DNA from: Pyxidicoccus sp. MSG2
Lineage (GTDB): Bacteria; Myxococcota; Myxococcia; Myxococcales; Myxococcaceae
Length of the DNA stretch: 64,000 nucleotides
Assembly (NCBI RefSeq): GCF_026626705.1
Contig: NZ_JAPNKC010000001.1
Coordinates: forward strand, 1,116,001 to 1,180,000
Reading direction: 5' to 3'
Each line of letters opens with the position of its first letter. The first letter of the stretch is position 1. The notes below the pieces were generated by a model. It was not told where the DNA came from, did not search any database, and was given only the letters and a program-made list of their open reading frames with translations. Below are positions 5,238 through 60,975 of the stretch, in pieces. The position numbers and the translations under genes were made by a program.

Positions 5238-5315
5238 GGGGTCAGACCATACCCCTTCAACCCCGAGCGGCAACCGGACCCGTGGATGCTAGGGTGCGCG
5301 CCCCTTCAATCTCCG

Positions 5316-6011: not shown

Positions 6012-6019
6012 CGCCGGTT
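5996..6019 (-). terminator. Rho-independent terminator for the 6105-6308 gene
   Basis: On the minus strand a 7-bp stem AACCGGC/GCCGGTT with a 4-base loop (6002-6019) is followed by seven T residues and then GTTT. It is a canonical intrinsic terminator. The loop contains the TGA stop codon (6009-6011) of the convergent DagK-type gene. Confidence 0.85.
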
Positions 6020-6104
6020 CCGTACTGCCTCCACGCGGGCGGGAGCCCCGAATCCAGTCCGGAGCCCGCGCGCCCGCGGGGTCGATGGTCCGAAGACTAG
6101 GGGC

Positions 6105-6308
6105 TCAGGCGCGCTGGCGCCACTCGGAGCCCTGCTCCTGTGTTGCCTGGACGGCAACGGGCTTGTCGCCTTCCTTGAGGTCCGCGGTCACCAGGTCGAG
6201 CAGCTCCGTGGCGATGCCGATGACCTGGTGCGGCGTGTAGCCGCTCGCGCGCAGCTGATTGAAGAAGGTGCGCGCCAGGATTCGGGTGCCCTTTTGGTCG
6301 GTGCTCAC
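6105..6308 (-). CDS. Small conserved hypothetical protein (67 aa)
   Basis: I do not recognise a named family. The frame is open to 6485, but the GTG at 6308 has a GGAGG site 7-8 bases upstream, and the conserved-looking sequence (VSTDQKGTRILARTFFNQLR) begins there. The protein is predicted mostly helical, with the segment ASGYTPHQVIGIATELLDLV resembling a small helical regulator or adaptor, and a polar Gln/Glu-rich tail. It has no signal peptide or membrane helix. It is followed by a strong terminator and preceded by a promoter with an operator-like inverted repeat, so it is probably a separately regulated single gene. Confidence 0.7.
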   Translation of the reverse strand: MSTDQKGTRILARTFFNQLRASGYTPHQVIGIATELLDLVTADLKEGDKPVAVQATQEQGSEWRQRA

Positions 6309-6629
6309 AGTGATTGCCTCCAGGAAGCGGCGAAGAGAGGGGGTCGCCGCATAAGCATGCGGCGTCAACACTTCAACCCCCGTGCCAGACGTTCTCTTCC
6401 GAACGGATTCCCCAGCGTTTCCCAGGGGTTGAAGGACACCGGCGCTCGGCATGGCCTCCCGGAGGGTGCGAAGACTGTTACGCACCTGTCGTCGGCACGG
6501 GGGGATGGCGGAGGGGGGTGCATCAGCGGGTACGCACCCGCGAGGGCCCCGCGAGACTCCGTGGTTTCAAGTGCTTGCAATCTTTCATGGGTGCGGAGAG
6601 ATACGCGCCCCCACCAGGAGCGAATGGCA
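6309..6629. promoter_or_regulatory. Divergent intergenic region with predicted promoter and inverted repeat
   Basis: This 321-base gap separates the 67-aa gene (minus) from the FAD dehydrogenase (plus). On the minus strand TTGAAG (6371-6376) and TATGCG (6348-6353) are 17 bases apart. An 8-bp-arm inverted repeat, CGCCGCAT (6345-6352) and ATGCGGCG (6357-6364), overlaps the -10 box and could be a repressor site. On the plus side an AGGAG at 6616-6620 serves the downstream start; I see no convincing plus-strand promoter. Confidence 0.45.
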
Positions 6630-8225
6630 ATGGCGTATCGGGTGAACAACATCGGGCTGTGGCTGGACGAGCCGGAGGAGCTGCTCGGACAGCGCGCCGC
6701 GGAGAAGCTCGGGGTCACTCGCTCCGACCTCGCCTCCGTGCGCGTGGTGCGCTCGGTGCTGGACGCGCGGAAGAAGGGCAGCCCCCGCTACATCTACACG
6801 CTGGAGGTGGAGCTGGCCCCCGGCCGCAAGCCCGGCCGCCTGCCCCCGGACGTGGGCGAGGCGCCTCCGCCTCCGGACGTCCTGCCCCCGGTGAAGGCGC
6901 CGGAGCGCAGGCCCATCATCATCGGCACCGGGCCCGCGGGGCTGTTCGCCGCCCTGGGCCTGCTGGAGCGCGGCGTGCGCAGCATCCTGCTGGAGCGCGG
7001 CCGCGAGGTGGTGACGCGTCGCAAGGACGTGGCGAAGCTGATGCGCGACGGCTCCCTGGACCCGGAGAGCAACATGAACTTCGGCGAGGGCGGCGCCGGC
7101 GCGTACACGGACGGCAAGCTGTCCACGCGCATCAACCACCCCATGGTGCGCAAGGTGATTGAAGCCTTCGCGAAGTACGGCGCGCCGGACCACATCCTCA
7201 TCGAGGGCAAGCCGCACATCGGCTCGGACCTGCTGCCGGGCGCGGTGGCGAAGCTGCGCGAGGAGCTCATCGCGGGCGGGTGCGAGGTGCACTTCGAGCA
7301 GCGGGTGGAGGACCTCCTCTACCGCGACGGGCGCGTGGCGGGCGTGAAGCTGGCCGACGGGCGCACCCTGGAGAGCGACCGCGTCATCCTCGCCCCGGGC
7401 AACTCCGCGCGAGAGCTGTACGAGCGCTTCGCCGCCGACGGCCAGGTGAGCGTGGAGGCCAAGCCCTTCGCGCTCGGCTTCCGCGCCGAGCACCCCCAGG
7501 CCCTCATCAACAGCATCCAGTACGGCAGCGCGGCGAAGAATCCCAAGCTGCCCCCGGCCGACTACAAGCTGGCGGAGAACCTGGACGTGGACGGCGAGGT
7601 GCGCGGCGTCTACTCGTTCTGCATGTGCCCCGGCGGAATCGTCGTGCCCACGCCGACGCAGGACGGCCTGCAGTGCACCAACGGCATGAGCAACTCACGC
7701 CGCAACGCGAAGTACGCCAACGCCGGCATCGTCGTCTCCGTGTCGGTGGCGGACTTCGAGCGCGAGGGCTTCCGCGGGCCGCTGGCGGGCCTGGAGTTCC
7801 AGCGCCACTGGGAGTCCAAGGCGTATGAGCTGGGCGGGGGGCGCTTCTACGCTCCGGCCCAGACGATTCCGGACTACCTGGCCGGCCGTGTGAAGAAGGA
7901 CCCGGGCGGCACCAGCTACCGGCCGGGCCTGGCCCACACGGACCTGAACCGCCTCTTCCCGGAGCGGCTCACCGAGTCCATCAAGCAGGCGCTGCGCACC
8001 TTCGAGCGGAAGATGCGCGGCTTCATCAGCGAGGAGGGCAAGCTCATCGGAATCGAGAGCCGGACCTCGTCGCCCGTGCGGATTACGCGCGGGGAGGACC
8101 TGCAGTCGGTGTCCCTCAAGGGACTCTATCCGGCGGGCGAGGGGTGTGGTTACGCGGGCGGCATCGTATCGTCCGCCATTGATGGTCTGCGCGTCGCTGA
8201 GCAGATTGCCACCGAGCTGTCCTGA
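6630..8225 (+). CDS. NAD(P)/FAD-dependent dehydrogenase, COG2509-like
   Basis: A 531-residue flavoprotein. An N-terminal domain of about 90 residues typical of this family (MAYRVNNIGLWLDEPEE) precedes the Rossmann dinucleotide motif (IIIGTGPAGLFAALGLLERG). GEGGAGAYTDGKL follows, and the C-terminal FAD-contact segment YPAGEGCGYAGGIVSSAIDG is present. Members are annotated as uncharacterised FAD-dependent dehydrogenases, and I cannot assign a substrate. Two in-frame ATGs (6624, 6630) lie close together; the second has the better spacing from AGGAG. It is followed 26 bases later by a small membrane protein on the same strand. Confidence 0.88.
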   Translation: MAYRVNNIGLWLDEPEELLGQRAAEKLGVTRSDLASVRVVRSVLDARKKGSPRYIYTLEVELAPGRKPGRLPPDVGEAPPPPDVLPPVKAPERRPIIIGTGPAGLFAALGLLERGVRSILLERGREVVTRRKDVAKLMRDGSLDPESNMNFGEGGAGAYTDGKLSTRINHPMVRKVIEAFAKYGAPDHILIEGKPHIGSDLLPGAVAKLREELIAGGCEVHFEQRVEDLLYRDGRVAGVKLADGRTLESDRVILAPGNSARELYERFAADGQVSVEAKPFALGFRAEHPQALINSIQYGSAAKNPKLPPADYKLAENLDVDGEVRGVYSFCMCPGGIVVPTPTQDGLQCTNGMSNSRRNAKYANAGIVVSVSVADFEREGFRGPLAGLEFQRHWESKAYELGGGRFYAPAQTIPDYLAGRVKKDPGGTSYRPGLAHTDLNRLFPERLTESIKQALRTFERKMRGFISEEGKLIGIESRTSSPVRITRGEDLQSVSLKGLYPAGEGCGYAGGIVSSAIDGLRVAEQIATELS

Positions 8226-8251
8226 GGGGACACGCCCGGGAGGAGGGCCCC

Positions 8252-8620
8252 ATGCGCTACGTGGTACGCACGCCGGACGGTGAGCTGGTCTACCCCAGCC
8301 TTCTCGACGTCGAGCAGGCCTACCTCCAGGGGCTGGTGGACCCGGAGGACGAGGTCCGCGAGGAGGACTCCTCCAAGTGGCGCAAGGCGGGCAGCCTCCC
8401 GACGCTCGTCCAGGCGCGCCGCGCATCCTCCGGGGCCGCCCAGCGGGGGCAGGCGTTGATGGTGCTGGGCGTGGTGCTGCTGGGCGGGCTGGCCCTGTCG
8501 CTGCTGTTCCGCGACAGCTGGAACCTGCGCCTTCTGGGCATCGTCCTCGCGCTGATGGCCAGCTTCATCCTCACCCGGGTGACGTTCAAGGCGTTCAAGC
8601 GCCCATCGTCCGGGGCCTGA
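8252..8620 (+). CDS. Small membrane protein with N-terminal GYF-like domain
   Basis: 122 residues. The first half (RYVVRTPDGELVYPSLLDVE, then ending SSKWRKAGSLP) resembles the short GYF_2/DUF4339-type domains that often precede membrane helices. The second half has two hydrophobic helices (around 68-86 and 92-108) and a basic tail. GGAGGAGGG lies 6-12 bases before the ATG. It is probably co-transcribed with the upstream dehydrogenase. I do not recognise a specific function. Confidence 0.75.
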   Translation: MRYVVRTPDGELVYPSLLDVEQAYLQGLVDPEDEVREEDSSKWRKAGSLPTLVQARRASSGAAQRGQALMVLGVVLLGGLALSLLFRDSWNLRLLGIVLALMASFILTRVTFKAFKRPSSGA

Positions 8621-8636
8621 TTCGGCTCCTGGGTCC

Positions 8637-8687
8637 GGCGGGGTTCGCTCCCTCCGACTTCTGAGCCGGGCGGGGTTCGCTCCCTCC
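8637..8687. repeat. 19-bp direct repeat, period 32
   Basis: GGCGGGGTTCGCTCCCTCC occurs exactly at 8637-8655 and again at 8669-8687, between the small membrane protein and the methyltransferase gene. The rest of the 195-base gap (8621-8815) shows only the ribosome site of the next gene. Confidence 0.8.
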
Positions 8688-8815
8688 CCCGCCTGCCCTC
8701 CCGGGCGGCGGCCCGGCGCTCGCCGCAAGCTGGCGACCGACGGCCCATGTTCTCCCCTGGGAGGACGCCCGTGGGCGCCGGTGCTCGCGGGGAACCGAGA
8801 GAGGGAGGACACACC

Positions 8816-9955
8816 TTGCTCAGCACCTATCTGTCCCGGGACGCCGCGCGCCGGCTCCGCCACGGTGCCCCCTGGCTTCGCCGGGAGGACATCGTCTCGA
8901 TGGAGGGAACACCGCAGCCCGGGGAGCCCGTACAGCTCCGCGACGAGGATGGCTCGGTGCTGGGCCTGGGCGACGTGGACCTGGAGTCCTCGTACGCGGT
9001 GCGTCGGCTGGGCCAGCCGGACGAGGCCGTGGAGGGGCTCATCCCCCGCCACCTGCGCCACGCCTTCGAGCGGCGCGGCCGGCTGGTGGACGACCCGCGC
9101 TTCTGCCGCGTCGTCAACGATGACGGCGACGGGCTGCCCGGCCTCATCGTGGACCGGTACGACACCCACTTCGTGGTGCAGACGCTGACGCGCGCCATGG
9201 ACGCACGGCAGGCGGAAATCACCCGCGCGCTGGTGGAGGTGACGGGCGCGGGCTCGGTGCTGCTGCGCAACGACTCGCCCCGGCGCAAGGCGCTGGGCCT
9301 TCCCACGCAGCGGGCCCACGTCCTCTACGGCACCCCGCCCCGCTGGTGTCGGCTGCTGGAGCTGGGCGCGCGCTTCACCGTGGACCTCACCTACGGCCTG
9401 GGCACCGGCTACCACTATGACCAGCGCGAGCTGCGCCGCTTCGTGGCGCGCATGGCCAACGGCGGCCGGGTGCTGGACGCGTGCTGCAACGTGGGCGGCC
9501 TCTTCGTCCACGCGGGCCTGCACGGGGCGCGGCAGATTCTCGCCTTCGACAGGAACACGGACGCGGCGGACCTGGCCCGGGAGAACGCCGAGGCCAACGG
9601 CCTGCTGGGCCGGGCCACGGTGGACACGGGCCAGCCCCTCCAGGTGCTCAGGGCGCTCCGCGACACCTTCGACCTGGTCCTCCTGGACACACCCGGGGTG
9701 ACGTCCGAGGACGAGTTCGTGGAGCAGCTGCGCCACGCCCTGCGACGCACCCGGCACGGGGGGAAGCTGCTGGTGGCCGGCTACCACCCGCCGCTGGCCC
9801 TGGGAGGCTTCGACGAGCTGGTGGCCACCGCCTGCGAGGCGGAGGCCCGCATCGGCACCCGGCTGGTCCGTCTGGGCCTGCCCCCGGACCACCCCACCCT
9901 GGTCGGCTCCCCCGGCTCGGACTACCTCGACGCCCTGGCGCTGGAAGTCAGCTGA
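8816..9955 (+). CDS. Class I rRNA methyltransferase, RlmI-like, with PUA domain
   Basis: SAM-dependent methyltransferase related to the RlmI family (23S rRNA m5C). The start is taken as TTG 8816, which has GGGAGG 7 bases upstream and gives 379 residues; the frame is open to 8747. An N-terminal PUA-like domain (LSRDAARRLRHGAPWLRRED) is followed by a central EEHD-like region and a Rossmann methyltransferase. SAM motif I reads VLDACCNVGGLFVHAG, then AFDRN. Family members normally carry DPPxF at motif IV; here it reads LLDTPGVTSEDEF, so exact specificity is uncertain. It stands alone between same-strand neighbours. Confidence 0.8.
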   Translation: MLSTYLSRDAARRLRHGAPWLRREDIVSMEGTPQPGEPVQLRDEDGSVLGLGDVDLESSYAVRRLGQPDEAVEGLIPRHLRHAFERRGRLVDDPRFCRVVNDDGDGLPGLIVDRYDTHFVVQTLTRAMDARQAEITRALVEVTGAGSVLLRNDSPRRKALGLPTQRAHVLYGTPPRWCRLLELGARFTVDLTYGLGTGYHYDQRELRRFVARMANGGRVLDACCNVGGLFVHAGLHGARQILAFDRNTDAADLARENAEANGLLGRATVDTGQPLQVLRALRDTFDLVLLDTPGVTSEDEFVEQLRHALRRTRHGGKLLVAGYHPPLALGGFDELVATACEAEARIGTRLVRLGLPPDHPTLVGSPGSDYLDALALEVS

Positions 9956-10004
9956 CGCGAGTTCCCCTGGAAGTGCCTTCCTGGTGCTAGTGTCCGCCGC
10001 CGAA

Positions 10005-11549
10005 ATGACCAACGAAAACACGCCCGAGACCGCCACCCCCACCCCGGAGGGTTCCGTGGAGACCGTCCGCAAGGTGTACGCGGCGGATCTGCGCGAGAAG
10101 GACCGCGTCAACACCGTCTTCCGCGTCACGAAGAAGGAGAAGGTGACCGCGCGCAGTGGCAAGGTGTTCCTCGCCCTCACCCTCGTCGACAAGAGCGGCG
10201 AGGTGGATGCCCGCATCTTCGACAAGGTGGACGCCCTGGAGCCCGCGTTCCAGTCCGGCGACTTCGTGCTGGTGCAGGGAAGCGTCATCAACTTCCACGG
10301 CCGCACCCAGGTCGTCGTGGAGGCCGTGGAGCGCCTGGACCCGGAGCCGCTGGACCCCAAGGAGTTCGAGCCGCCTCCGGCCCCGCCCCCCGAGGCGAAG
10401 CCCGCCGCCGAGGCCAAGGCCCCCGAGGCCCGCGAGCCACGCGCCGAGAAGGCCGACAAGGGCGAGGCCCGCGCCAGCGCCGAGCCGAAGGAAGGCAAGG
10501 CCGCCGAGGGCGCCCGGGACGGCTCGGGTGGCGCGCGCGCCGCCGGCCTCATCCGGGAGATGGTGTCCGAGCGGGTGAACGACCCGCACGTGAAGCAGTT
10601 GCTGCTGGCCTTCCTGGACGACCCGCAGATTGCCGCGGGCCTTCCGATTGCGCCCGCGGGGAAGGCCATGCACCACGCGTGGCGTGGCGGGCTGGCCGAG
10701 CACCTGCTGTCGGTGATGCGGCTGACGCTGCGGGTGGCGGACCACTACCCCATGGCGGACCGCGACCTGCTGCTGGCCGGCGCGCTGCTGCACGACGTGA
10801 TGAAGGTGGCGGAAATCTCGCCCGAGAAGGGCTTCGACTACACCGACGAAGGGAAGCTCGTCGGCCACCTGGTGATGACGGCGCAGAAGATTCGCGAGAA
10901 GACGCTGGCCATCCCCGGCTTCCCGCCGCTCCTGGAGCAGCACCTCACGCACCTGGTCCTCGCCCACCACGGCCAGCTCGAGTACGGCAGCCCCAAGCTG
11001 CCGATGACGCTGGAGGCGCACATCGTCCACGCGCTGGACTCGCTGGACTCGCGCATCGCCTCGTGGCTGGAGGCCATGCAGCGCGACTCCAACGACAAGT
11101 GGACGGACGTGCTGCGCCACTATGACCGGCAGCTGTGGAAGGCCCCCGCGCCCACCTCTCGGGGCCGCGCCCCCGTGGAGGGCGGTGGTGGCCGCCGCAA
11201 GTCGCGCGAGGAGAAGCGCAAGGCCCGGGGCGACAGGCCCCGCGAGCAGGGCGGCGACAAGGCCCAGGGTGGCGACAGGCCCCAGGGCGCCGCGCCCGCC
11301 ACCGAAGGTGCCACCCCGGCCGAGGCGAGTGCGCAGCCCCAGCGCCCGCCGCGCCGCGAGCGTCCGCCCCGTGAGGAGCGCGCACGTGAGGAGCGTCCCC
11401 CCCGCGAGGAGCGCCCGCCGAGGCCTCCGCGCGAGGAGCGCCCGCCGCGCGACGCCAACTCCCTGCCCCGCGAGCTGACCTTCAAGCCCTTCAGCGCGCT
11501 GACGTCCGTGGCCCCGGCCAAGGACGGCGAGGGTTCCTCGGAGAGCTGA
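10005..11549 (+). CDS. YhaM-type 3'-5' exoribonuclease with charged linker and Arg/Pro tail
   Basis: 514 residues. An OB-fold nucleic-acid-binding domain (about 20-110: VRKVYAADLREKDRVNTVF) is followed by an Ala/Glu/Lys-rich linker (about 125-175). An HD phosphohydrolase domain (about 190-380) contains MHHAWRGGLAEHLLS, the metal-binding LLHDVMK near 261 and HHGQLEYG. This OB-HD order is that of YhaM/CBF1 exonucleases. Known YhaM proteins are about 315 residues; the difference here is the linker and a long tail rich in PPREER repeats that could bind RNA or partners. The ATG at 10005 begins the conserved region. The next gene starts 16 bases later. Confidence 0.85.
   Translation: MTNENTPETATPTPEGSVETVRKVYAADLREKDRVNTVFRVTKKEKVTARSGKVFLALTLVDKSGEVDARIFDKVDALEPAFQSGDFVLVQGSVINFHGRTQVVVEAVERLDPEPLDPKEFEPPPAPPPEAKPAAEAKAPEAREPRAEKADKGEARASAEPKEGKAAEGARDGSGGARAAGLIREMVSERVNDPHVKQLLLAFLDDPQIAAGLPIAPAGKAMHHAWRGGLAEHLLSVMRLTLRVADHYPMADRDLLLAGALLHDVMKVAEISPEKGFDYTDEGKLVGHLVMTAQKIREKTLAIPGFPPLLEQHLTHLVLAHHGQLEYGSPKLPMTLEAHIVHALDSLDSRIASWLEAMQRDSNDKWTDVLRHYDRQLWKAPAPTSRGRAPVEGGGGRRKSREEKRKARGDRPREQGGDKAQGGDRPQGAAPATEGATPAEASAQPQRPPRRERPPREERAREERPPREERPPRPPREERPPRDANSLPRELTFKPFSALTSVAPAKDGEGSSES
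11403..11447. repeat. 18-bp in-frame direct repeat in the exonuclease tail
   Basis: CGCGAGGAGCGCCCGCCG occurs at 11403-11420 and at 11430-11447, a 27-base (9-codon) period. It is part of a run of EERPPR-type units in the C-terminal tail of the YhaM-like protein. Confidence 0.8.
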
Positions 11550-11565
11550 GGGAGCTCAAAGGCCC

Positions 11566-13539
11566 ATGGCGAAGAAGTTGGGAGAGCGCCTCATCGAGGC
11601 CGGCCTCGTCAACGCGGGGGCCGTGGAGCAGGCCCTGGAGCACCAGAAGATCACCGGCCACAAGCTGGGGGACTGTCTGGTGGAGCTGGGACTGCTCCAG
11701 GAAGCGGGGTTGCTGCGCTTCCTCGCCGCCGAGTTCCAGACGCGCTTCGTCACGGCGGACAAGCTGGCCAAGGCCCGCATCGCCACCGAGGTGCTCGACA
11801 GGCTCCCCGTGCGCCTCGCCGAGGCGCAGAACGTGCTGCCGCTGGCGGTGGACCCGGAGCGCAAGCTGCTCTCCGTGGTCGCCGCCGAGCCGCAGAACAA
11901 GGCGCTGATGGACGAGATTGCGCTCGTCACCGGCATGTCCGAGGTCTACGCGTACGTGGGCCTGCGCAGCGCCATCGCCGCGGCCATCCGCAAGCACTAC
12001 TACGGCGACCCCACCGCCTTCACCGCGCTGCTGGAGTCTCCGGGCGCGCAGCCCAGCCCCCCCGTCCCGTCCCGCACGGGGGCCGCGGAGCACAGCCGCA
12101 CCACCACGTCGGGCCGCAGCAGCATGACGGGGCTGAGCAGCCTCTATGGCCGCATGGAGACGGACCCGCGGCTGCGGGTGCACCGCCCCAGCGGCGCCAC
12201 CCCGGCCGCCCGCCCCTCCACCCAGCGGCGCGAGCCGGGCGGGCCCCGCGGCATCGTCAGCGACGCCGACTACGTGGAGACGCTGGGCATCCTCGTGGGC
12301 ATGCTGGAGCAGGACCGGCAGCGCCACCGCGGACACTCCGCGCAGCTCGCGCGCCAGGCGGGCATCGTCGGCCAGCGCATGGGCATGCCGCACAAGGAGC
12401 TGGCGGCGCTGTCCATCGCCGCCTACCTCCATGACCTGGGCAAGCCGTCCGAGCGCCACTTCTCCCTGGCCAGCAACGCCGTCAACGCCGACTGGAAGGC
12501 CCAGGCGAAGCAGGCGTGCCGCGTGCCCACCAAGCTGTTCGAGACGGTGCACCTGCCCACGCAGACGAACACCATCCTCGCGCAGCTCTACGAAGCCTGG
12601 GACGGCTCCGGCACCCCGCAGGGCGCCAAGGGAGAAGACATCACCCTGGGCGCGCGCATCCTCGCCGCGGTGGACAGCTTCCTGGAGCTGACGAAGAACC
12701 CGGGCAACGCGCACGGCAAGGCCTTCACCAAGGAGCAGGCGCTGGAGCACCTGCGGAAGAACGCGGGCGTGCTCTATGACCCGGTGGTGGCGGACATCGT
12801 CATCCAGCTCCAGAGCGGCGAGCTGCTGCGCCACCGGCTGGAGAGCGAGGGCCGGCAGGTGCTCGTCGTGGAGCCGGACGAGGCAGCGCGCGGCGAGCTG
12901 CTGGAGGCGGTGCTGAAGCAGGGGCTGGTGGCGCATGCGCTGTCCACGGTGGAGGGCGCGCAGGACGGCCTGGCCCGGCAGGACTGCGACGTGCTGGTGG
13001 TGAGCCTGCGGCTGGGCCAGCAGGAAGTGCTGGACCTGCTTCAGCAGGCGCGCTCGACGCCGGAGACGGCGGGGCTGCCCATCGCCGTGGTGGGCGAGCC
13101 GGACGCGGCCACGCGTGAGCGGCTGGTGATGGCCGGCGCCTCGGCGGTGCTGGCTCCCGGCGAGAAGGGGGTCATCGCCAAGGCGGTGAGCACCCTCCTC
13201 GAGGACCGGGTGCTGCACAACGGCCCGGGCCGCGTGGTGCGGGGCAGCTTCGACGAGCTGCCTCCGAAGGAGCTGCTGCGCACGCTCTCCGGCGGATTCA
13301 AGAATGGGCGGCTGCACCTGCGCCAGCACACGCTGGAGGGCTACCTCCACCTGGAGCGCGGCCGCGTCGTCTTCGCCTCCTTCGGAGGCCACTCCGGAGA
13401 GCCCGCCCTGCAGGCGCTGCTGAAGCTGAAGCAGGCGGACTTCCAGTACGACCCGGACGCGCTGCTGCTGGACGTGCCGCAGATGGACCAGGACCTGCAG
13501 GACCTGCTGGCCCTGGCCGGCGCCGTCAGCCCAGGCTGA
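11566..13539 (+). CDS. T2SSE-N / HD-GYP-like / receiver / DUF4388 multidomain signalling protein
   Basis: 657 residues. Residues 1-150 are a GspE/MshE N-terminal-type domain (GERLIEAGLVNAGAVEQALE), a class known to bind cyclic di-GMP. After a Ser/Pro linker comes an HD domain with RGHS (near 258) and HDLGK (near 289). The GYP motif is degenerate, WDGSGTPQG instead of YDGSGYPxG. Residues 430-545 look like a receiver fold (VLVVEPDEAARGELLEAVL) with RQDCDVLVVSLRL where the phospho-Asp segment should be. The C-terminus is DUF4388 (GSFDELPPKELLRTL, then GYLHLERGRVVFASFGG). It probably integrates a cyclic-nucleotide signal; enzymatic activity is doubtful. It overlaps the convergent tatD by 14 bases. 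Confidence 0.82.
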   Translation: MAKKLGERLIEAGLVNAGAVEQALEHQKITGHKLGDCLVELGLLQEAGLLRFLAAEFQTRFVTADKLAKARIATEVLDRLPVRLAEAQNVLPLAVDPERKLLSVVAAEPQNKALMDEIALVTGMSEVYAYVGLRSAIAAAIRKHYYGDPTAFTALLESPGAQPSPPVPSRTGAAEHSRTTTSGRSSMTGLSSLYGRMETDPRLRVHRPSGATPAARPSTQRREPGGPRGIVSDADYVETLGILVGMLEQDRQRHRGHSAQLARQAGIVGQRMGMPHKELAALSIAAYLHDLGKPSERHFSLASNAVNADWKAQAKQACRVPTKLFETVHLPTQTNTILAQLYEAWDGSGTPQGAKGEDITLGARILAAVDSFLELTKNPGNAHGKAFTKEQALEHLRKNAGVLYDPVVADIVIQLQSGELLRHRLESEGRQVLVVEPDEAARGELLEAVLKQGLVAHALSTVEGAQDGLARQDCDVLVVSLRLGQQEVLDLLQQARSTPETAGLPIAVVGEPDAATRERLVMAGASAVLAPGEKGVIAKAVSTLLEDRVLHNGPGRVVRGSFDELPPKELLRTLSGGFKNGRLHLRQHTLEGYLHLERGRVVFASFGGHSGEPALQALLKLKQADFQYDPDALLLDVPQMDQDLQDLLALAGAVSPG

Positions 13540-49617: not shown

Positions 49618-49789
49618 CAGAACAGTGATGAAGAGATGGCCGACCCACGGCCATCCCGCCGCGCCCGCCTCGTAGGTTGACTCGTGCGTGGACAGGGCGC
49701 TCCAGAGCCATCCGCCCACGCCGGTGCCGCCTGCCGCGAGGAAGCGGTGAGTCCACCGGGAGCGCCCGTCGATGCGGGAGGCAGCCGGT

Positions 49790-50551
49790 ATGTTCAAGTC
49801 GGTCATCGAGCGGCAGCGAGCGGGGCGACTGGGGACGGGGACGTGGGTGTCCATCGGCGTGCATGCGGCGCTGTTCGCCGCGGTGCTGTTCATCTCCGCG
49901 CGGCCTCCGGAGCCTCCGCCCGAGAAGGACCCGCTCGACGACCTCCGCATCATCGTGCAGCGGGGCCCCAGCGTGCGCAGGGGCACCCCGGCACCCGCGC
50001 CCCCGAAGCAGGCCACCCCGCCTCGTCCCAAGCCCCCGGAGAGGAACCGCGTGCCCCGCACGCCCCAGCCGCTGCCGACGCAGCCGCGTCCTCCGGAGCC
50101 CGACCCGACGCCGTCCCCGGGCAGGGATGACGTGGTCGCCACGCCTGCCATCTCCGTCGAGCCCGAGGGCCACCCGGACGGCGATCCGGACAGCCTGCTC
50201 CCCGACGGTCCGCTGCCCACGAGCTTCCCCACGGACCTGGTGCGCAAGGCCACGGACGTGGAGAACCTTCCCTTCGGCGACGGCATGACGCCGCCGGTGA
50301 TGCTGAGCGGAGCCCCCATCGAGTACACGTCCCTGGCGCGCGCGGCCGAGGTGGAAGGCACGCTCATCGCGAAGTGTGTCATCACCCGGGAGGGACAGAT
50401 GCGGGACTGCCGCGTCCTCAAGGGCCTGGCCTATATGGACGAGGCGGTGGTGGAAGCCCTGGAGACCCGGCGCTACCGCCCGGTGACGTTCCAGGGCAGC
50501 CCGGTGTCCGTGTCCTATCACGTCACCGTCAGGCTCAAGCTGCCCCGGTAG
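49790..50551 (+). CDS. TonB family protein, copy 1
   Basis: 253 residues. The short cytoplasmic start (FKSVIERQRAGRLGTGTWVS) is followed by a single membrane helix (VHAALFAAVLFISA), a Pro-rich periplasmic spacer and a C-terminal TonB domain (YTSLARAAEVEGTLIAKCVI, DEAVVEALETRRYRPVTFQG). TonB proteins transmit proton-motive force to outer-membrane transporters. The ATG at 49790 has GGGAGG upstream; earlier in-frame codons are not supported. It is one of two tandem paralogues; neither has adjacent exbB/exbD. Confidence 0.88.
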   Translation: MFKSVIERQRAGRLGTGTWVSIGVHAALFAAVLFISARPPEPPPEKDPLDDLRIIVQRGPSVRRGTPAPAPPKQATPPRPKPPERNRVPRTPQPLPTQPRPPEPDPTPSPGRDDVVATPAISVEPEGHPDGDPDSLLPDGPLPTSFPTDLVRKATDVENLPFGDGMTPPVMLSGAPIEYTSLARAAEVEGTLIAKCVITREGQMRDCRVLKGLAYMDEAVVEALETRRYRPVTFQGSPVSVSYHVTVRLKLPR

Positions 50552-50609: not shown

Positions 50610-50829
50610 TGCCGTTTCGGGAGGCGCGGCTGCACCTGCGCGAGCGGTCTTTTCCCATGACAGAACCGTGACCAAGAGATGGACGACCCACGGCCATTCC
50701 GAGACAGCGACTGCGTAGTTTGACTCTTGCGTGGTCAGGGCGCTCCAGAAGCAACCGAACACGTCGGCATCCGTCCGTGGGGAGCGGACGGATGCCGGGA
50801 GCGCCCGTCCTTGGAGGAGGCCGTCCACC

Positions 50830-51582
50830 ATGTTCCAGTCAGTCATCGAGCGGCAGCGGGCAGGGCGTCTTGGCACGGGCATGTGGCTGTCCATCGGAGC
50901 GCACGCGGCGCTGTTCGCCGCGGTGCTCTTCATCTCCGCGAGGCCCACGGAGCTGCCGCCCGAGCCGGAGAAGGAATACGTCCTCAAGCTGAGCCCGGGC
51001 CCCAACCTGGCCAAGGGCACGCCGGCGCCCGCCGCCCCGAAGCAGGCCGTCGCCCCGAAGCCCCGCCCGCGCAACCCGAACCGCGTCCCGACCAAGGTGC
51101 AGCCGCTGCCGGCGGACCCGCAGCCCGTGGAGCCGCCGCCTTCCGACCCCAGCGACAACACCGACGAGGTGGCGGACCCGGGCGAGGGCGTGGCCGGCGG
51201 CCACCTGGACGGTGACCCGAACAGCACGACCATCGGCGTGCCGCTCGTCCCCGGCCTCCCGGGGGGCACGGGCCAGGGCCCCACGGGCACGGAGGTCCTC
51301 CCCTTCGGGCAGGGCATGACGCCGCCGACGCAGGTGCGCGTCACTCCCATCGACTACACGCCCGCGGCGCGCGCGGCCGAGGTGGAAGGCACGCTCATCG
51401 CCAGGTGCGTCATCACGGTGGAGGGCAGCGTGCGCGACTGCCGCGTCATCAAGGGCCTGCCGCACATGGATGAGGCGGTGGTGGACGCCCTGGAGACCTG
51501 GCGCTACCGCCCGGTGACGTACCAGGGCAAGGCGGTCAGCGTGTCCTACGTCTTCACCCTCCGGCTGAAGATGCCCCGGTAG
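50830..51582 (+). CDS. TonB family protein, copy 2
   Basis: 250 residues, paralogue of the gene at 49790. N-terminus FQSVIERQRAGRLGTGMWLS, one membrane helix, Pro/Lys-rich spacer, TonB C-domain (YTPAARAAEVEGTLIARCVI, DEAVVDALETWRYRPVTYQG). GGAGGAGG precedes the ATG at 50830. The spacer differs strongly from copy 1, with a Gly-rich PGLPGGTGQGPTG piece. It is convergent with the TPR lipoprotein gene (4 bases apart). Confidence 0.88.
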   Translation: MFQSVIERQRAGRLGTGMWLSIGAHAALFAAVLFISARPTELPPEPEKEYVLKLSPGPNLAKGTPAPAAPKQAVAPKPRPRNPNRVPTKVQPLPADPQPVEPPPSDPSDNTDEVADPGEGVAGGHLDGDPNSTTIGVPLVPGLPGGTGQGPTGTEVLPFGQGMTPPTQVRVTPIDYTPAARAAEVEGTLIARCVITVEGSVRDCRVIKGLPHMDEAVVDALETWRYRPVTYQGKAVSVSYVFTLRLKMPR

Positions 51583-53986: not shown

Positions 53987-55474
53987 ATGTCGAGCATCGA
54001 GTACGACGTGGTGGTGGTGGGCGCGGGCTTCGGCGGGCTCGCCACGGCGCTGGAGTTGACGCGGCGGGGCGCTCGCGTGGCGCTGTGCGAGACGCTGAAC
54101 TACCCCGGCGGCTGCGCCAGCACCTTCCGGCGGGAAGGCCATGCGTTCGAGGCCGGAGCCACGCTCTTCTCCGGCTTCGAGCCGCACCAACTCTTCGGCC
54201 GGTGGATTCGCGAGCACGGCATGGCCGTGACGGTGGACTGGTTGGATCCGGTGGTGGAATTGCGCACGCCGGAGCTGCGGCTGCCGGTGCATCGGGACAA
54301 GGCACGGTTCATCGAGTCGCTCTGCGCCCTGCCCGGTGCGCCCGTCTCGGGCATCCGCCGGCTGTTCGCGTTGCAGGGCCAGGTGGCCGAGGCACTGTGG
54401 CCGCTGTTCGATGACCCGGGCCTGCTGCCGCCGCTGGACGTGAAGGCGCTGCTGCGCCACTCGGGGCGCGCACTCCGGTACGCGACACTGCTGCGGTGGA
54501 TGGGCCGGCCGCTGGGCGCGGTGCTGGAGACGCTGGGGCTCGCGGGCTTCACGCCGCTGCGCACGTACCTGGATGCGCTCTGTCAAATCACGGTGCAGTG
54601 CAGCGCGGCCGAGGCGGAGGCGCCCTTCGCCCTGGCGGCCATGGACTACTACTGGCGGGGCACGGGCCATGTGCGCGGCGGCATCGGCAAGCTGGCGGAG
54701 GCGATGGCGAAGGCGGTGGAGGCGCGCGGCGGCACGGTGCTGCTAGCCAACCGGGTGAAGTCCATCACCCGGGTGCCCGGAGGTTGGAGCGTGGCGTCGC
54801 GCAAGGGCGAGCTGCGGGCGCGGAACGTCGTGGCCAACCTGCTGCCGCGTGGTGTTCTCCGGTTGCTGGGCCTGCCGCCCGAGCAACTCCCCCGCCTGGG
54901 AGCCATGTCAGAGCGCATCAGCGAGGGCTGGGGCGCGGCGATGCTCTACCTGGTGGTGAAGGCGCCGGAGCACGAGCGCGGCAGCGCGCACCACCTGGAG
55001 TTGGTGCGGGACGCGAGCGCGCCGTTCATCGAGGGCAACCACCTGTTCATGTCCATCAGCGGAGCGGCGGACGAGGGCCGCGCGCCCGAGGGTCACCGCA
55101 CGGTGACGGTGTCCACCCACGTGCCGCTGAAGACGCTGGCGGGCCTGTCGGCGCAGGAGCAGGGACGCTATCTGAGCGGCATCCAGGAGCACATGCTCGC
55201 GGGGCTGGAGCAACTGGCGCCCGAGTGGATGGCCGGACTCACGCACACGATGACGGCGTCACCGCGCACGTATCAGCGCTTCACGCAGCGCGAGGGCGGC
55301 GCGGTGGGCGGCGTGCCCCGACGCGCGGGGTTCGCGAACTACCGGAACCTGGGCCCCATGCAGGTCATGGACGGGCTGTGGCTCGTCGGGGACTCGGTGT
55401 TTCCCGGACAGAGCACGCTGGCCACGGCGGTGGGCGGCGTGCGCACCGCCGCGAGCATCGCCTCGCGAGGCTGA
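53987..55474 (+). CDS. FAD-dependent oxidoreductase, phytoene desaturase/CrtI-like
   Basis: 495 residues. The dinucleotide motif DVVVVGAGFGGLATALELTR is followed by the CrtI/retinol-saturase-type NYPGGCASTFRREGHAFEAG. The C-terminal FAD motif reads GLWLVGDSVFPGQSTLATAVGGVRTA. These are features of carotenoid desaturases, isomerases and related saturases. No other carotenoid genes are adjacent, so the substrate is open. The ATG at 53987 starts the conserved region. A perfect 22-bp palindrome begins directly after the stop codon. Confidence 0.87.
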   Translation: MSSIEYDVVVVGAGFGGLATALELTRRGARVALCETLNYPGGCASTFRREGHAFEAGATLFSGFEPHQLFGRWIREHGMAVTVDWLDPVVELRTPELRLPVHRDKARFIESLCALPGAPVSGIRRLFALQGQVAEALWPLFDDPGLLPPLDVKALLRHSGRALRYATLLRWMGRPLGAVLETLGLAGFTPLRTYLDALCQITVQCSAAEAEAPFALAAMDYYWRGTGHVRGGIGKLAEAMAKAVEARGGTVLLANRVKSITRVPGGWSVASRKGELRARNVVANLLPRGVLRLLGLPPEQLPRLGAMSERISEGWGAAMLYLVVKAPEHERGSAHHLELVRDASAPFIEGNHLFMSISGAADEGRAPEGHRTVTVSTHVPLKTLAGLSAQEQGRYLSGIQEHMLAGLEQLAPEWMAGLTHTMTASPRTYQRFTQREGGAVGGVPRRAGFANYRNLGPMQVMDGLWLVGDSVFPGQSTLATAVGGVRTAASIASRG

Positions 55475-55536: not shown

Positions 55537-57798
55537 TCAGGCCCCTCGCGCCTCGACGGAGCCATCCAGCGTGGGCGGCTCGTTGCGCGCCGAGGACGCC
55601 AGCTCCGCGAGGATGCGCACCGCCTCGCGCGCCGCCGACTCGGGCCGCACGCTCGTATCGGAGATGCCGGCAATCAGTCGCGTGATGTCGTGGTCCACCC
55701 TGCCCTGCCGGCCCCACGCCCGCGCCGACGGCGCACTCAGGTACGCGGAGAAGGCATGGTGCCCGGAGCCCGGCCGCTCACCGATGACGTGCACCAGCGC
55801 CCGCGGCGCCGACTTCTCCGAGTCACCGAACAGCAGCTCCCCCACCTGGTAGCCCGCGCGCACGCGGCCGTACTTCACCACCAGGTGCTCGGGCGCCACG
55901 TGCCAGCCCGCCGCCGCCAGCTCGCGCCGCAGCTCGGCCAGGAACGGCTTCAGGTGCCCTTCATCCATCAGCGAGCGAGCATCCAGTCCATCCGAGATGA
56001 CTATCTGCGCGTCCCACTGCCCGGCATGCCGCAGCCGCAGCATCCGCACCGCCAGCTCGGATGCCGAATCCAACCGCTCGCCCGAAGGCGGATGCAGGAT
56101 GTAGTCGCGCCGGTCCTCCGAGCACGTCCGCAGGGGCACCGCGTCGACAAGCTGCGCCACCATCGCCTCGGACAGCTCCGACCAGAGGCCCGCCTTCGCG
56201 TCCTCGTACAGCGCGCGCAGCTCCCGCTCCAGCGACGGCTCCAGCTCGTACGTCAGCGCCCCGTGCCCCACCGCCAGCGGCACGCTGCGCTCACGCACCG
56301 CCGCCATCTCCCGCTTCGCTTCCGTGAGTACCTCCGCGTCCGGGCGCGAGTCCCCCTTGCGCCGCCGGTACTGGAGGTACACCCACGCCGGGTCACCGAA
56401 ATGCTCCGTGGGGCGCCCCTGCGCGTCGATGACGCCGAGCTCCTGGAAGAAGGCCCACATCCGGTCATCCGCCTTGAGGCCGAACTTCTCCCGCAGCCGG
56501 ACGTGGTCCTGGAACGCCGTCGTCAGGTAGCTGAGCATCGGGTCGTTCCGCGTGGGCAGCGCCATGAGGTAGCCGGGGCCCGCCGGGGCCACCTGCTCCA
56601 GGCACCAGCCCAGGTCATCCAGCGTCACGTCCATGTGCAGCGTGGAGCACACGTCCAGGCCAATCATCAGCCCGTGCAGCTTGCCCATGACGATGTCTTC
56701 CAGGCAGCAGCGCACGAGCTGCTCGCGGGTGCGGAACACCTCTGGCCCGATGAAGCCCGCCACGTCATTCACGTGCACCCACGGCTCCTGCGCCCGCCCC
56801 ACCCCGAGCTGCGCCATCGCCACGCGCGCCTTCAGCGCCCGCGCGAAGCCGTACTTGCGCGACTCGTGGATGAGCATGTCGCAGCCGTGGTGGTGCCCGT
56901 TCGTCGCGTCCGCGCCCTGTCCCGTCTCGAAGTAGAGGCCGAACTTCCCGGTGCGACTCGCCGCGTGCCGCACCATCTTCTCGATGGTGACGTCGAAGGT
57001 GCGGTTGGCGGACTCGTTGCCCGCGAGGCTCTGGAACCAGATGCCGGTGGTGCCCGGCTGCCGTGCCTCCACCTGCGCCTGCACGTCGATGTGCGAGAGC
57101 ACGCAGTGGGGCATCACCTCCGCCAGCCCGAAGGTGACGAGGATGTCGTGCAGCGCCGCCTCCACCGCCGCCACGGACGCGGGCACCGAGGACACCGGGT
57201 TGGTGCCCAGCACCACGTCGCCCACCGCGAAGGACCAGCCGTTGAAGACCTGCCAGCGGATGTCGTCCGGGTGGTCCGTGGGCGAGTTGGGCTGGAGGCG
57301 CGCCCCCAGGTAGCCCTTCGCGCCCAGCTTGCTGCCGGGCAGCGGGTGGTAGATGCGCGCGCCCACCGCCGTCAGCTCCGCGTCGCTCATCAGCTTCACG
57401 ACACAGGCGATGACGTCACTGCCCAGCCCGCCGAGGATGGCGTGCACCTCCGCCTCGGGCGCGGTGAGCAGGAAGTGCTTCAGTTGCCCCAGCGTCCACT
57501 CGGAGAGGCGGGGCAGCAGCTCCCCGTCCAGTCCCTCCAGCATGAAGGCATGCAGCCGGTCCTCGAAGGGAGGATGCGAGTGGATGGCGCCCAGCTTCGT
57601 GCGCGACAGCAGCGCACGGGCATTCGCGCGGGACGTCTCGTCCGCGGCGGAGATGCCCAGGGCCGCGTCGCCCTCCTTGAACGCGTTGGCCGCGCCAAGA
57701 AGCTGCTGGTAGAGGCGCGAATCGAAGGAACCCAGAACCCGGTGGATGTAGCCGAAGACATCCTCGCCGGTGAGGACGTCGCGGAGGCTCACGCTCAT
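55537..57798 (-). CDS. eutBC: Ethanolamine ammonia-lyase, fused EutB-EutC
   Basis: Adenosylcobalamin-dependent conversion of ethanolamine to acetaldehyde and ammonia. The 753-residue protein combines what is normally two subunits: EutB-like residues 1 to about 455 (VFGYIHRVLGSFDSRLYQQL, GISAADETSRANARALLSRT, HIDVQAQVEARQPGTTGIWF) and EutC-like residues about 490-735 (AQIVISDGLDARSLMDEG, then VHVIGERPGSGHHAFSAYL). The sum equals separate EutB plus EutC. The ATG at 57798 matches the expected EutB length, but no ribosome site is evident; GTG starts upstream are possible. There are no microcompartment or EutA reactivase genes nearby. Confidence 0.92.
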   Translation of the reverse strand: MSVSLRDVLTGEDVFGYIHRVLGSFDSRLYQQLLGAANAFKEGDAALGISAADETSRANARALLSRTKLGAIHSHPPFEDRLHAFMLEGLDGELLPRLSEWTLGQLKHFLLTAPEAEVHAILGGLGSDVIACVVKLMSDAELTAVGARIYHPLPGSKLGAKGYLGARLQPNSPTDHPDDIRWQVFNGWSFAVGDVVLGTNPVSSVPASVAAVEAALHDILVTFGLAEVMPHCVLSHIDVQAQVEARQPGTTGIWFQSLAGNESANRTFDVTIEKMVRHAASRTGKFGLYFETGQGADATNGHHHGCDMLIHESRKYGFARALKARVAMAQLGVGRAQEPWVHVNDVAGFIGPEVFRTREQLVRCCLEDIVMGKLHGLMIGLDVCSTLHMDVTLDDLGWCLEQVAPAGPGYLMALPTRNDPMLSYLTTAFQDHVRLREKFGLKADDRMWAFFQELGVIDAQGRPTEHFGDPAWVYLQYRRRKGDSRPDAEVLTEAKREMAAVRERSVPLAVGHGALTYELEPSLERELRALYEDAKAGLWSELSEAMVAQLVDAVPLRTCSEDRRDYILHPPSGERLDSASELAVRMLRLRHAGQWDAQIVISDGLDARSLMDEGHLKPFLAELRRELAAAGWHVAPEHLVVKYGRVRAGYQVGELLFGDSEKSAPRALVHVIGERPGSGHHAFSAYLSAPSARAWGRQGRVDHDITRLIAGISDTSVRPESAAREAVRILAELASSARNEPPTLDGSVEARGA

Positions 57799-57922: not shown

Positions 57923-59080
57923 TTACTCGTCGAGCAGCCCGGACCAGAAGCCCACCAGCCTCCACACGTCTCCCACCCCTGCCTGCCGGTCCACCTCCGC
58001 GTGGGAGATGAGGGGCGTGGCCAGGGCATGCACTTCGGTGTGGGGCCGCAGCGCCTTCGCGAGCAGCGAGGCCTCCATGGCGGGAATCACCGTGTCCCCT
58101 TCCCCGTGCAGCAGGTAGACGGGCGTGGACGGCGGCGGCGAGCGCTCGGGTGACAGGGCCGGGTCCGCGGCGAAGGCCTTCACGAACGGCAGGAGCAGCG
58201 GCCCCAGCGCCGCCACGTTCCGCGTGTTGACGTGCTTCATCAGCGTGGAGGCCGGCTCGGGCATTTCCGCCTGGAGCGTCCGCGCCCGGGCGAAGGTCTG
58301 CTCCGCCAGGGCCTTGTCGGTGAGCGTCAGGTGCGAGGCGCGCAGGAAGGTACGGATGCCCGTGCGCAGCGGCTCCACCTGCTCGGGCGGCACCAGCCGG
58401 TCCGCCACGTTGAGCAGGATGACCACCACGCCGTAGTCGTGCGGCGCCAGCTTGCTGCCGTCCGGGAGCACACCGGTACACAGGAAGGCCAGCACGCGCG
58501 AGAGGTCCCCGTGCCCGCCGAACGAGAGCGTCGCGGCCACCTTCCCCTTCAACGCCGGCCGCCCCGAGGCCACCACGGACAGCCCGCCGGAGAAGCTGAT
58601 GCCGAACAGGTCCACCTTGCCGTCCGGCGCCAGGTCCTTCTGGGACGCGGCCCACGCGGCGGCGTCCTCGATGATGTCCGGCAGGCGCGGGGTGATTTCG
58701 TAGCGCAGCAGGTCCGGGGGCTCGGGGGTGAGCACCGCCTGCCCGCCCGTGGCCAGGTCTCCTGCCAGCTTCACCAGGCGCGGCTCGTCGATGCCATCCG
58801 CGTGGACGCCCGAGGTGAGCACCACCGTGCGCTCCACCCGACCCTCCAGGGGACGGTACAGCCGGGCGCGCACCGGGCCGTGGCGCGTGGGCACGCGTAG
58901 GTCGCTCACGTCGAAGGGCACCGTGCGCCAGCGCGCGAGCGCCTCGGCCGCAGCGCCCTGCATCCCCGCGGCGCGCAGCACGAAGGACAGTCCGCGCAGC
59001 CGGTCCGGCCCCGCCCACAGCGCCAGGGCCAGCAGCGCCGCCAGCGACGCGGCCAGCACCCTGCGGCCGGGGCGATTCAC
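57923..59080 (-). CDS. Alpha/beta-hydrolase-like membrane-anchored or exported protein
   Basis: 385 residues from GTG 59080, whose codon overlaps the kinase stop (GTGA). The frame is open to 59107, but this start gives a basic residue cluster followed by a hydrophobic segment (VLAASLAALLALALWAG). A nucleophile-elbow-like FGISFSGGLSV (near 165), HGEGDTVIP as an acid loop and LISHAEV with a candidate His suggest an alpha/beta hydrolase. The substrate is unknown. It sits 124 bases upstream of eutBC, same strand, and could release ethanolamine from a lipid or ester; that is speculation. Confidence 0.78.
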   Translation of the reverse strand: MNRPGRRVLAASLAALLALALWAGPDRLRGLSFVLRAAGMQGAAAEALARWRTVPFDVSDLRVPTRHGPVRARLYRPLEGRVERTVVLTSGVHADGIDEPRLVKLAGDLATGGQAVLTPEPPDLLRYEITPRLPDIIEDAAAWAASQKDLAPDGKVDLFGISFSGGLSVVASGRPALKGKVAATLSFGGHGDLSRVLAFLCTGVLPDGSKLAPHDYGVVVILLNVADRLVPPEQVEPLRTGIRTFLRASHLTLTDKALAEQTFARARTLQAEMPEPASTLMKHVNTRNVAALGPLLLPFVKAFAADPALSPERSPPPSTPVYLLHGEGDTVIPAMEASLLAKALRPHTEVHALATPLISHAEVDRQAGVGDVWRLVGFWSGLLDE

Positions 59081-60975
59081 TGGAGCAGGTGCTCGACGAA
59101 CGTGCACAGGCCCTCGCGCTCGAAGGGCTTCTCCAGCAGCCCGCGGGAGTGGCGGCCCACGAACTCGCGGGCCTGCGGAGTGAAGGCGCCGCCCGTCATC
59201 AGCCCGGTGCGCAGCACCAGGTCCGGCGCCATCCGCTCCAGCTCCACCACGAAGTCCATTCCGCTCATGCCCGGCATCATCAAGTCACAGAGGATGGCAT
59301 CGAACCGCTCGCCTTCCGAGAGCAACTGGAGCGCCTCGCGCGCGCCCTGCACGGCGCGGACCTCGTACACGTCGCGCACCAACCGGCTCACCGAGCTGCC
59401 CACGGAGGGCTCGTCGTCGATGAGCAGCAGTCGCCGGCGGGGCATCACCGGGCGCGGCGCTCGCGGCCTCACGCTCGTGCTCGCGACCGGGGCCGCCGCG
59501 TCCGAGACGGTGGCGGGCAGCACCACGCGGAAGGAGCTGCCCCGGCCCGGCGTGCTGGAGACGTCGATGCGCCCGCCCATGGCCTGCACGAGGGTGAGGC
59601 AGATGGACAGGCCCAGCCCGGTGCCCTCGCCCACGGCCTTGGTGGTGAAGAAGGGGTCGAAGATGCGGCGCTGCACCTCCGGCGGCATGCCGTGCCCGTT
59701 GTCCGCCACCTCCAGCTCCACCTGGCCGGGGCGGCCGGCGCGCAGGGACACGCGCACCTCGTTCTCGTCCGCGGGCCGCTCCGGCAGCGCCTGCAGCGCA
59801 TTCACCAGCAGGTTGACGACGACCTGGCTCAGCCGCACGTCGTTGCCATGGACGCGCGGCACGGGCTGCAGCGTGCACACCAGCCGGGCGCGGTGCGACA
59901 GCTCGTTGCGCACCAGCCGGAGCGCGCCGTCCACCACGCGCGACACGTCCACGGGCGAGAGGCGGTCCTCGTCCGCGCGAGCGAAGGTGCGCAGGTCGCG
60001 GACGATGGCGCCCACCCTCGCCGCGCCCACCTCCGCCTCCTCCACCACCTCGCGCAGCTCCGGGAGCGCTTCCGGGGACAGCGCGGCCTGGGCCAGGCGC
60101 TCCTTCAGGAAGGAGAGGTTGGAGCAGACGAAGGCCAGCGGGTTGTTGATTTCGTGCGCGACGCCCGCGGCCAGCGTGCCCACGGAGGCCATGCGCTCGG
60201 CGACCATGAGCTGCGACTCCAGCCGCTTGCGGTCCGTGACGTCTCGGATGACGGCGACGAGGAAGCCCTCGCCGTCCGTGCCGGTGAAGGCGGCCTTCTT
60301 CGTCACGAGGGTGTGCGTGCGGCCCTCGCGGTCGGTGAAGGCCTCCTCGTTCTCGTCGGTGCGGCCGGAGCGGAAGACCTGCTCGTCCTTGCGCCAGAAG
60401 ACGTCCGCCTCGTGCGCGGGGACGAAGTCATAGTCCGAGCGGCCCAGCAGCTCCTCCGCGCTGTGGCCCATGAACTGGCAGAACGCGTTGTTGACGGCCA
60501 CCCACCGGTGCTGCCGGTCCTTGACGAAGAGCGGGTCCGGCACGCCGTCGAGCGCGCTGCGCAGGAAGTCCGCGGCGCGGCGCGTGGACTGGATTTCGAC
60601 GTTCGCCCGCTCCGCCTGCATGCGGCGCTGCAGCGACACCAGCCGTGCGCCCCAGTGCGTGCCCGGCGGGGCCACACACTCGTCGGCTCCGGCCCGGGCC
60701 AGCGCCTCGGACTCCGCGGGAGCCCGGGGCGTCAGCACCACGAACTGCGTGCGTGAGGCCACGCGGGACTCATCCAACCGCTGACACCAGGCGGCAACCT
60801 CTTCCAGCGGGCCGCCGTCGTCCCAGGCCACCAGCAGCCCTTCCGTCATGGAACCGGGGGCCGGGGCCTCGGACACGCGCAGCACGTGGCAGGCGCGGCC
60901 CACGTCGGACTCGCGCAGCCCTCGCTCGATTTCCTCCGCCACCGCGGAGGGCACCGCTACCAGCGTCGCGTGCAA
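59077..60975 (-). CDS. PAS sensor histidine kinase with C-terminal receiver domain
   Basis: 632 residues from TTG 60975, with GGGGAG about 8 bases upstream. The N-terminal 150 residues resemble a receiver-like fold without clear phospho-Asp. A PAS domain follows (SALDGVPDPLFVKDRQHRWV, GHSAEELLGRSDYDF), then HisKA with GVAHEINNPLAFV. The HATPase_c domain has NLLVNALQALP, DNGHGMP and GEGTGLGLSICLTLV. A C-terminal receiver has LLIDDEPSVG and a phospho-Asp in DAILCDLMMPGMSGMDF. There are no membrane helices, so it is cytoplasmic. It overlaps the downstream hydrolase start by 4 bases. Confidence 0.93.
   Translation of the reverse strand: MHATLVAVPSAVAEEIERGLRESDVGRACHVLRVSEAPAPGSMTEGLLVAWDDGGPLEEVAAWCQRLDESRVASRTQFVVLTPRAPAESEALARAGADECVAPPGTHWGARLVSLQRRMQAERANVEIQSTRRAADFLRSALDGVPDPLFVKDRQHRWVAVNNAFCQFMGHSAEELLGRSDYDFVPAHEADVFWRKDEQVFRSGRTDENEEAFTDREGRTHTLVTKKAAFTGTDGEGFLVAVIRDVTDRKRLESQLMVAERMASVGTLAAGVAHEINNPLAFVCSNLSFLKERLAQAALSPEALPELREVVEEAEVGAARVGAIVRDLRTFARADEDRLSPVDVSRVVDGALRLVRNELSHRARLVCTLQPVPRVHGNDVRLSQVVVNLLVNALQALPERPADENEVRVSLRAGRPGQVELEVADNGHGMPPEVQRRIFDPFFTTKAVGEGTGLGLSICLTLVQAMGGRIDVSSTPGRGSSFRVVLPATVSDAAAPVASTSVRPRAPRPVMPRRRLLLIDDEPSVGSSVSRLVRDVYEVRAVQGAREALQLLSEGERFDAILCDLMMPGMSGMDFVVELERMAPDLVLRTGLMTGGAFTPQAREFVGRHSRGLLEKPFEREGLCTFVEHLLQ

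Follow-up and report, generated by a model that had tools for sequence, protein, structure and literature searches.

A single-chain ethanolamine ammonia-lyase in a myxobacterium, probably a cytoplasmic offshoot of a fused and apparently exported family

The stretch of Pyxidicoccus sp. MSG2 DNA analysed here (64,000 nucleotides, hereafter the window) encodes the two parts of ethanolamine ammonia-lyase (EAL), EutB and EutC, in a single open frame. Judged from sequence and predicted fold, the product is probably a working single-chain, cytoplasmic enzyme dependent on adenosylcobalamin (AdoCbl), derived from an exported family by loss of the signal. The fusion itself is already known and has been in print since 2012: the passages of PMC3543383 on fused lyases describe two fused EutBC in Pelobacter carbinolicus (Pcar_0491 and Pcar_0467) and no eutA in its genome, and do not mention export. 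More surprising than the fusion, the comparisons suggest, is the exported look of the fused family, which we did not find in print. The window alone did not suffice to see it, since neither the signals carried by the relatives nor the lack of one in this copy is visible from this stretch. Among the openly licensed PMC papers found, partly by the hyphenated enzyme name (which misses unhyphenated spellings), PMC3543383 alone describes the fusion and none describes an exported EAL.

The window gene and its predicted product

The lyase gene and its two neighbours are as follows.

55537..57798, minus strand: fused EutB-EutC protein, one open frame of 753 codons plus stop, without signal peptide
56404..57711, minus strand: EutB (large subunit) domain, residues 30-465 (Pfam PF06751, fold match to 3abo_A with Z 44.3, alignments)
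56278..56403, minus strand: junction, residues 466-507, predicted ordered, and conserved
55597..56277, minus strand: EutC (small subunit) domain, residues 508-734 (Pfam PF05985, fold match with Z 24.2, alignment)
57923..59107, minus strand: upstream gene of 394 aa, with sub-cut-off alpha/beta-hydrolase matches only
53987..55474, plus strand: convergent gene for a carotenoid desaturase/isomerase-like FAD oxidoreductase, whose best NCBIfam matches stay under their cut-offs

Both Pfam domains are recognized in this frame, EutB at E 1e-134 and EutC at E 2.5e-29 (102.7 bits vs a cut-off of 25.8), which bears out the sequence-only reading that one polypeptide holds both subunits at their combined normal length. 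EAL is characterized by two separate subunits; here there is a single frame, as there is in the one-frame orthologues. The protein also passes the NCBIfam EutB model (576.3 bits vs a cut-off of 554). Its EutC half is divergent, since it reaches 73.9 bits and misses the NCBIfam equivalog cut-off of 230 by a wide margin. When the PDB was searched with the window protein (E up to 0.001), five chains were matched, all of them EAL heavy or light chains.

The same frame stays open for 77 codons upstream of 57798, as far as an ATG at 58029. Because this extension overlaps the 3′ end of the upstream gene, which lies on the same strand 124 bp upstream of the lyase gene, and because in the orthologues L013, L016 and L018 the frame opens just a few codons ahead of MSV-, translation probably starts at 57798.

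An AlphaFold2 model of the window protein, made with 40 aligned sequences, has a mean pLDDT of 90.1 and a pTM of 0.87. Using VIA-align, E. coli EutB (3abo_A) matches model residues 15-475 with Z 44.3, and residues 58-294 of EutC (5ysr_D) match model residues 468-740 with Z 24.2. The model thus predicts both known EAL subunit folds, joined by an ordered helical junction. A helical junction near 455-490 had been read from the sequence, and the prediction agrees, with helices at 470-480 and 487-503 and a block pLDDT of 96-98 over residues 461-500. Residues G468, D483 and R485 are invariant in the fused proteins compared, and D469, P470, W472, V473, Y474 and Y477 nearly so. These features weigh against the idea that the finished chain is cleaved into an EutB-like and an EutC-like piece, giving a normal two-subunit EAL as the mature enzyme: a junction both conserved and predicted ordered is unlike a spare, protease-sensitive linker, and the only point in favour is that the standard enzyme has two chains. 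We hold such processing to be very improbable.

Spread and phylogeny of the fused form

Within the phylum, 96 of 195 genomes are matched by the window protein, and by row count 55 of the 195 show a one-frame match to both the EutB and the EutC parts. In one of these (G121) the match reaches residue 633 and the remainder lies on another contig. Some of the 55 rows report one stop; those that were fetched (L002, L023, L039, L045 and L051) read open to the end. The other 41 matched genomes comprise G086, with the fused gene in two abutting frames, G179, with a fragment (52%) at the edge of a contig, and 39 genomes whose EutB and/or EutC matches are of the split type (about 29-40%). Fused and split types occur together in none of the rows of the phylum's genomes, for each of which the five best candidates were scored. 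For the window's own genome, scoring covered all 31 candidates, and only two fused genes emerged.

A scan of genome contigs confirmed 373 relatives. The best 80 of the 373, which are the named loci, come from Thermodesulfobacteriota, Myxococcota, Bacteroidota, Planctomycetota, Acidobacteriota, Pseudomonadota, Tharpellota and Riflebacteria. In the class of Roseivirga pacifica (395 genomes), 6 genomes have a fused match and 11 split-type matches only; R. pacifica, the centre of this set and counted within it, had been selected because its gene is fused. Fused genes with 52-54% identity also occur on Sinorhizobium and Ensifer plasmids, and no relative of the S. meliloti fused protein was detected on viral contigs.

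In a tree of the EutB part with 106 rows, the 94 fused sequences stand apart from the 12 split EutB with SH-aLRT 100. The window protein, a single chain placed in this clade apart from split EutB, is a member of the fused EutBC family. On this tree, fused EutBC is one old clade across several phyla. The search for fused homologues and the phylogeny proposed in the sequence-only reading have thus been carried out, with many homologues in a single clade vs split EutB, and the fusion, already printed for P. carbinolicus, is no oddity of this genome. That a sequencing or assembly error joined two neighbouring genes, the frameshift envisaged in that reading, is refuted by the one-frame orthologues in 55/195 genomes of the phylum and in several other phyla; we give it a practically negligible probability.

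The window's own group, clade A, forms 10 rows of the tree on one side of a branch with SH-aLRT 100. It is counted here as 33 members, these 10 together with another 23 that were assigned by similarity.

The Pelobacter EutBC1/EutBC2 pair, known here from the paper alone, is among the closest known likenesses in having one polypeptide for both subunits and no eutA, and the Pelobacter-named loci L066 and L072 are members of the fused family. The pair differs in that its genes lie among transport and cobalamin genes, according to the passages of PMC3543383, whereas the window gene is solitary; L066 and L072 also carry Sec-like signals and the window copy has none.

Active site, reactivation and gene setting

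The positions matching R160, Q162, N193, E287, F329 and D362 of E. coli EutB, which we take from E. coli EAL structures to form the ethanolamine/cofactor-radical site, are unchanged in 131/131 fused proteins (128 distinct, with three duplicate pairs). The equivalent of M392 is M in 111 of the 131 and I in 20. The SDGL, GRV and GERPG stretches of EutC are kept in the five fused proteins aligned. The E. coli enzyme (EutB and EutC; PDB 3abo) resembles the window protein in both folds and in these site residues; it differs in having two subunits from two genes, about 30% identity, and a eut operon with shell proteins and EutA. The genome holds a PduO-type adenosyltransferase (C1:8203907) and none of the CobA type.

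We infer that the window protein performs the AdoCbl-dependent conversion of ethanolamine to acetaldehyde and ammonia. Each chain would provide a substrate-binding barrel and a cobalamin-binding domain, the cofactor radical would act on ethanolamine, and AdoCbl would be produced with the PduO-type enzyme. Acetaldehyde and ammonia would then diffuse out into general metabolism, with no microcompartment. Counting against the proposed cytoplasmic enzyme, which might want an ethanolamine permease, no permease over cut-off was found in the genome (seven matches lie below it).

The same chemistry might serve a natural substrate other than ethanolamine, either another amino alcohol or choline, which would yield trimethylamine and acetaldehyde. 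This is suggested by the low identity to E. coli EutBC, by the EutC half falling far under its NCBIfam cut-off and by the solitary setting of the gene, without eut neighbours. In the passages of PMC3543383 on the fused lyases, P. carbinolicus strains, with two fused copies, are said to grow on ethanolamine or choline, and its authors consider that choline may be the substrate of one of the two. The six site residues, unchanged in 131/131 and including those facing the amino group, argue the other way, and we regard another substrate as unlikely.

The sequence-only reading had seen no shell proteins and no EutA reactivase nearby. Both absences extend to the whole genome, with positive E. coli controls in either case: the shell family PF00936 gives 0 matches, and the eutA search proposed in that reading returned a sole match of 26.8 bits. 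This apparent EutA is FtsA, which scores 487.6 bits with TIGR01174 (cut-off 175.85). Across the phylum's 195 genomes, the highest-scoring EutA match reaches 37.6 bits over 78 positions; the matches in the printed rows are weak (26-38 bits) in split- and fused-enzyme genomes alike, and resemble the kind given by FtsA in the window's genome. Because genomes of the phylum with the split enzyme show no EutA either, the idea that the fusion replaces EutA was rejected. The lack of EutA noted in the sequence-only reading holds, and it is not a feature peculiar to the fused enzyme.

As to microcompartments, an N-terminal encapsulation peptide of EutC is described for the Eut microcompartment in PMC5821096. 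In the window protein EutC has no free N-terminus. Of the first 100 residues of E. coli EutC, 58 can be aligned with the window protein and 11 of these are identical; the fold match starts at EutC residue 58. A concealed counterpart of the peptide is therefore unlikely. Split EutB/EutC with an Eat permease, as in Thioclava (L149), resembles the window case in having no shell protein or EutA among its listed neighbours; it differs in having two genes and an adjoining ethanolamine permease gene.

The two neighbours of the window gene recur within its own group. Among 32 other clade-A loci, the upstream gene lies beside at least 10 and the FAD oxidoreductase beside at least 21; these are lower bounds because many loci have a flank of 1.5 kb only, and two of the loci (L008 and L099) are one gene. 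Neither neighbour occurs at the 20 non-clade-A loci compared. Antisense clusters produced by the neighbour clustering were the lyase itself and were set aside by eye. Elsewhere in the window, at 49772-50551 and 50731-51582 (plus strand), lie two adjacent, similar proline-rich proteins, each with a TonB_C domain; the pair adjoins an apparent sensor kinase and response regulator pair, labelled by eye.

Other groups display settings of their own. In Desulfuromonadales and kin, the lyase belongs to a conserved run of genes, in which it is preceded by a barrel-like protein and an SBP_bac_6 binding protein and followed by a membrane protein, a Peripla_BP_2 protein and a FecCD permease. The run is found at L065 and L066 (about 3500-12000) and also at L059, L063, L064, L072 and L073; the barrel-like label was given by eye with no Pfam family over cut-off, and the membrane protein likewise by eye, without a Pfam match. 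It resembles the gene setting of P. carbinolicus in the passages of PMC3543383, where the fused genes lie among transport and cobalamin genes. A cobalamin riboswitch (RF00174, 111.1 bits) at L059:783-965 (plus strand), about 5 kb upstream of the fused lyase gene, is the sole one in 12 Desulfuromonad-type loci; none was found in 10 Bacteroidota loci, nor in the window and six other myxobacterial loci. The neighbourhoods of eight rhizobial loci share a dehydrogenase cluster in varying position, and the one such dehydrogenase that was scanned is of the zinc alcohol dehydrogenase kind.

Export signals across the family and in the window's clade

Several kinds of N-terminus were read from the sequences of the fused relatives: RR-type in rhizobia, planctomycetes and a second myxobacterial group (clade B), Sec-like in Desulfuromonadales and kin and in G173, and RR or RK plus a lipobox in Bacteroidota and clade B. 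Under a strict, home-made rule, 79/131 fused proteins and 0/18 split EutB have a signal. By a looser rule, also home-made, written after seeing the misses of the strict one and applied to all groups alike, signals are present in 91/98 fused proteins outside clade A, in 2/33 of clade A and in 0/18 split EutB. The two clade-A hits, L008 and L099, are weak: they are two entries of one gene, which scores at threshold and is read from an upstream start. Among the 91 signal-bearing proteins, 56 carry RR, 10 have SRKxF instead of RR, and 40 a lipobox.

The seven failures outside clade A are L046, L047, L057, L058, L123, L130 and L134. Of these, L057 has a hydrophobic segment when inspected by eye, and L058 and L123 run up against the end of a contig. 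No recognizable signal is seen in L134 (Planctomycetota) or in L046 and L047 (Myxococcota), which may be further independent losses. Five Bacteroidota genes were fetched later; one (L155) is the same as L125, and the other four have a signal by eye (4/4). Most of the fused relatives examined outside clade A are thus probably exported, whether periplasmic or lipid-anchored.

TatC is present in 9/10 genomes tested, the window's own included, and the exception, G173 (92% complete), carries a Sec-like member. TatC fails to sort Tat from Sec members, as the genomes of the Sec-like L060, L065 and L066 have it. The RR segment of the S. meliloti protein falls within its annotated CDS. Three Sinorhizobium records carry a gene name, and all three call the protein just EutB, a name that conceals both fusion and signal.

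The hydrophobic N-termini of the relatives could instead be inner-face membrane anchors or remnants, the whole family being cytoplasmic. The signal calls come from a home-made rule and many Bacteroidota have RK instead of RR; moreover, outside the cytoplasm there is no ATP with which a B12 radical enzyme could be re-adenosylated. Against this, RR motifs, Sec-like segments with AxA-like sites and lipoboxes occupy the same position across different phyla, the CDS annotated in S. meliloti takes in its RR segment and no split EutB (0/18) carries a signal. We therefore give a wholly cytoplasmic family a low probability and retain export as the better reading of these N-termini. Tat-exported corrinoid enzymes do exist, for example reductive dehalogenases. 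They set a precedent for the export of a corrinoid protein in its folded state, as is suggested here for the relatives, although they differ in fold and chemistry and are not AdoCbl radical enzymes. Tat-type relatives would receive their cofactor inside the cytoplasm and leave it already folded, whereas Sec-type relatives would take up cobalamin in the periplasm, which it crosses on its way in.

The window copy has no N-terminal export signal. Its N-terminus MSVSLRDVLTGEDVF aligns just past the signals of its relatives, e.g. GVYIPEVRAGEDVF in L002, the second fused gene of the same genome.

L002:1363-3699 (genome C1:552441-554642), plus strand: second fused EutBC paralogue, 65% identical to the window copy

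L002 holds both EutB and EutC domains, and its N-terminus resembles a Tat signal with a lipobox, followed by a proline-rich stretch. Clade A is nested in a starred group of 57 rows (SH-aLRT 95) whose other members bear signals but for a few. Since the window copy starts where the mature part of the exported-type proteins starts and its clade is nested among them, a single loss of the signal in the ancestor of the clade-A myxobacteria is suggested, rather than its repeated gain. As the tree leaves the basal fork of the fused part open, single loss is the simplest reading, not a proven one. According to this scheme, the loss, most simply once and after duplication, would have produced a cytoplasmic form, and the window's genome would have retained both the cytoplasmic and the exported forms.

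A broader proposal, which we rate at about even chances, is that an old cross-phylum family of AdoCbl radical lyases acts outside the cytoplasm. EutB and EutC would have been fused to let a single signal carry the two halves out, whether by the Tat, the Sec or a lipoprotein route, and ethanolamine would be broken down in the periplasm without permease or ATP-driven reactivase; the window's clade would then be a reversion to the cytoplasm, with an exported paralogue in the same genome. If confirmed, the exported relatives would be, to our knowledge, the first AdoCbl radical enzymes outside the cytoplasm. Their action there would raise the questions of how they acquire the cofactor, how they withstand oxygen and how they endure without EutA, and also whether the fusion was selected so that a single signal could export both halves. 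With one putatively cytoplasmic copy and one Tat/lipobox copy, the genome of Pyxidicoccus sp. MSG2 would offer a natural controlled pair.
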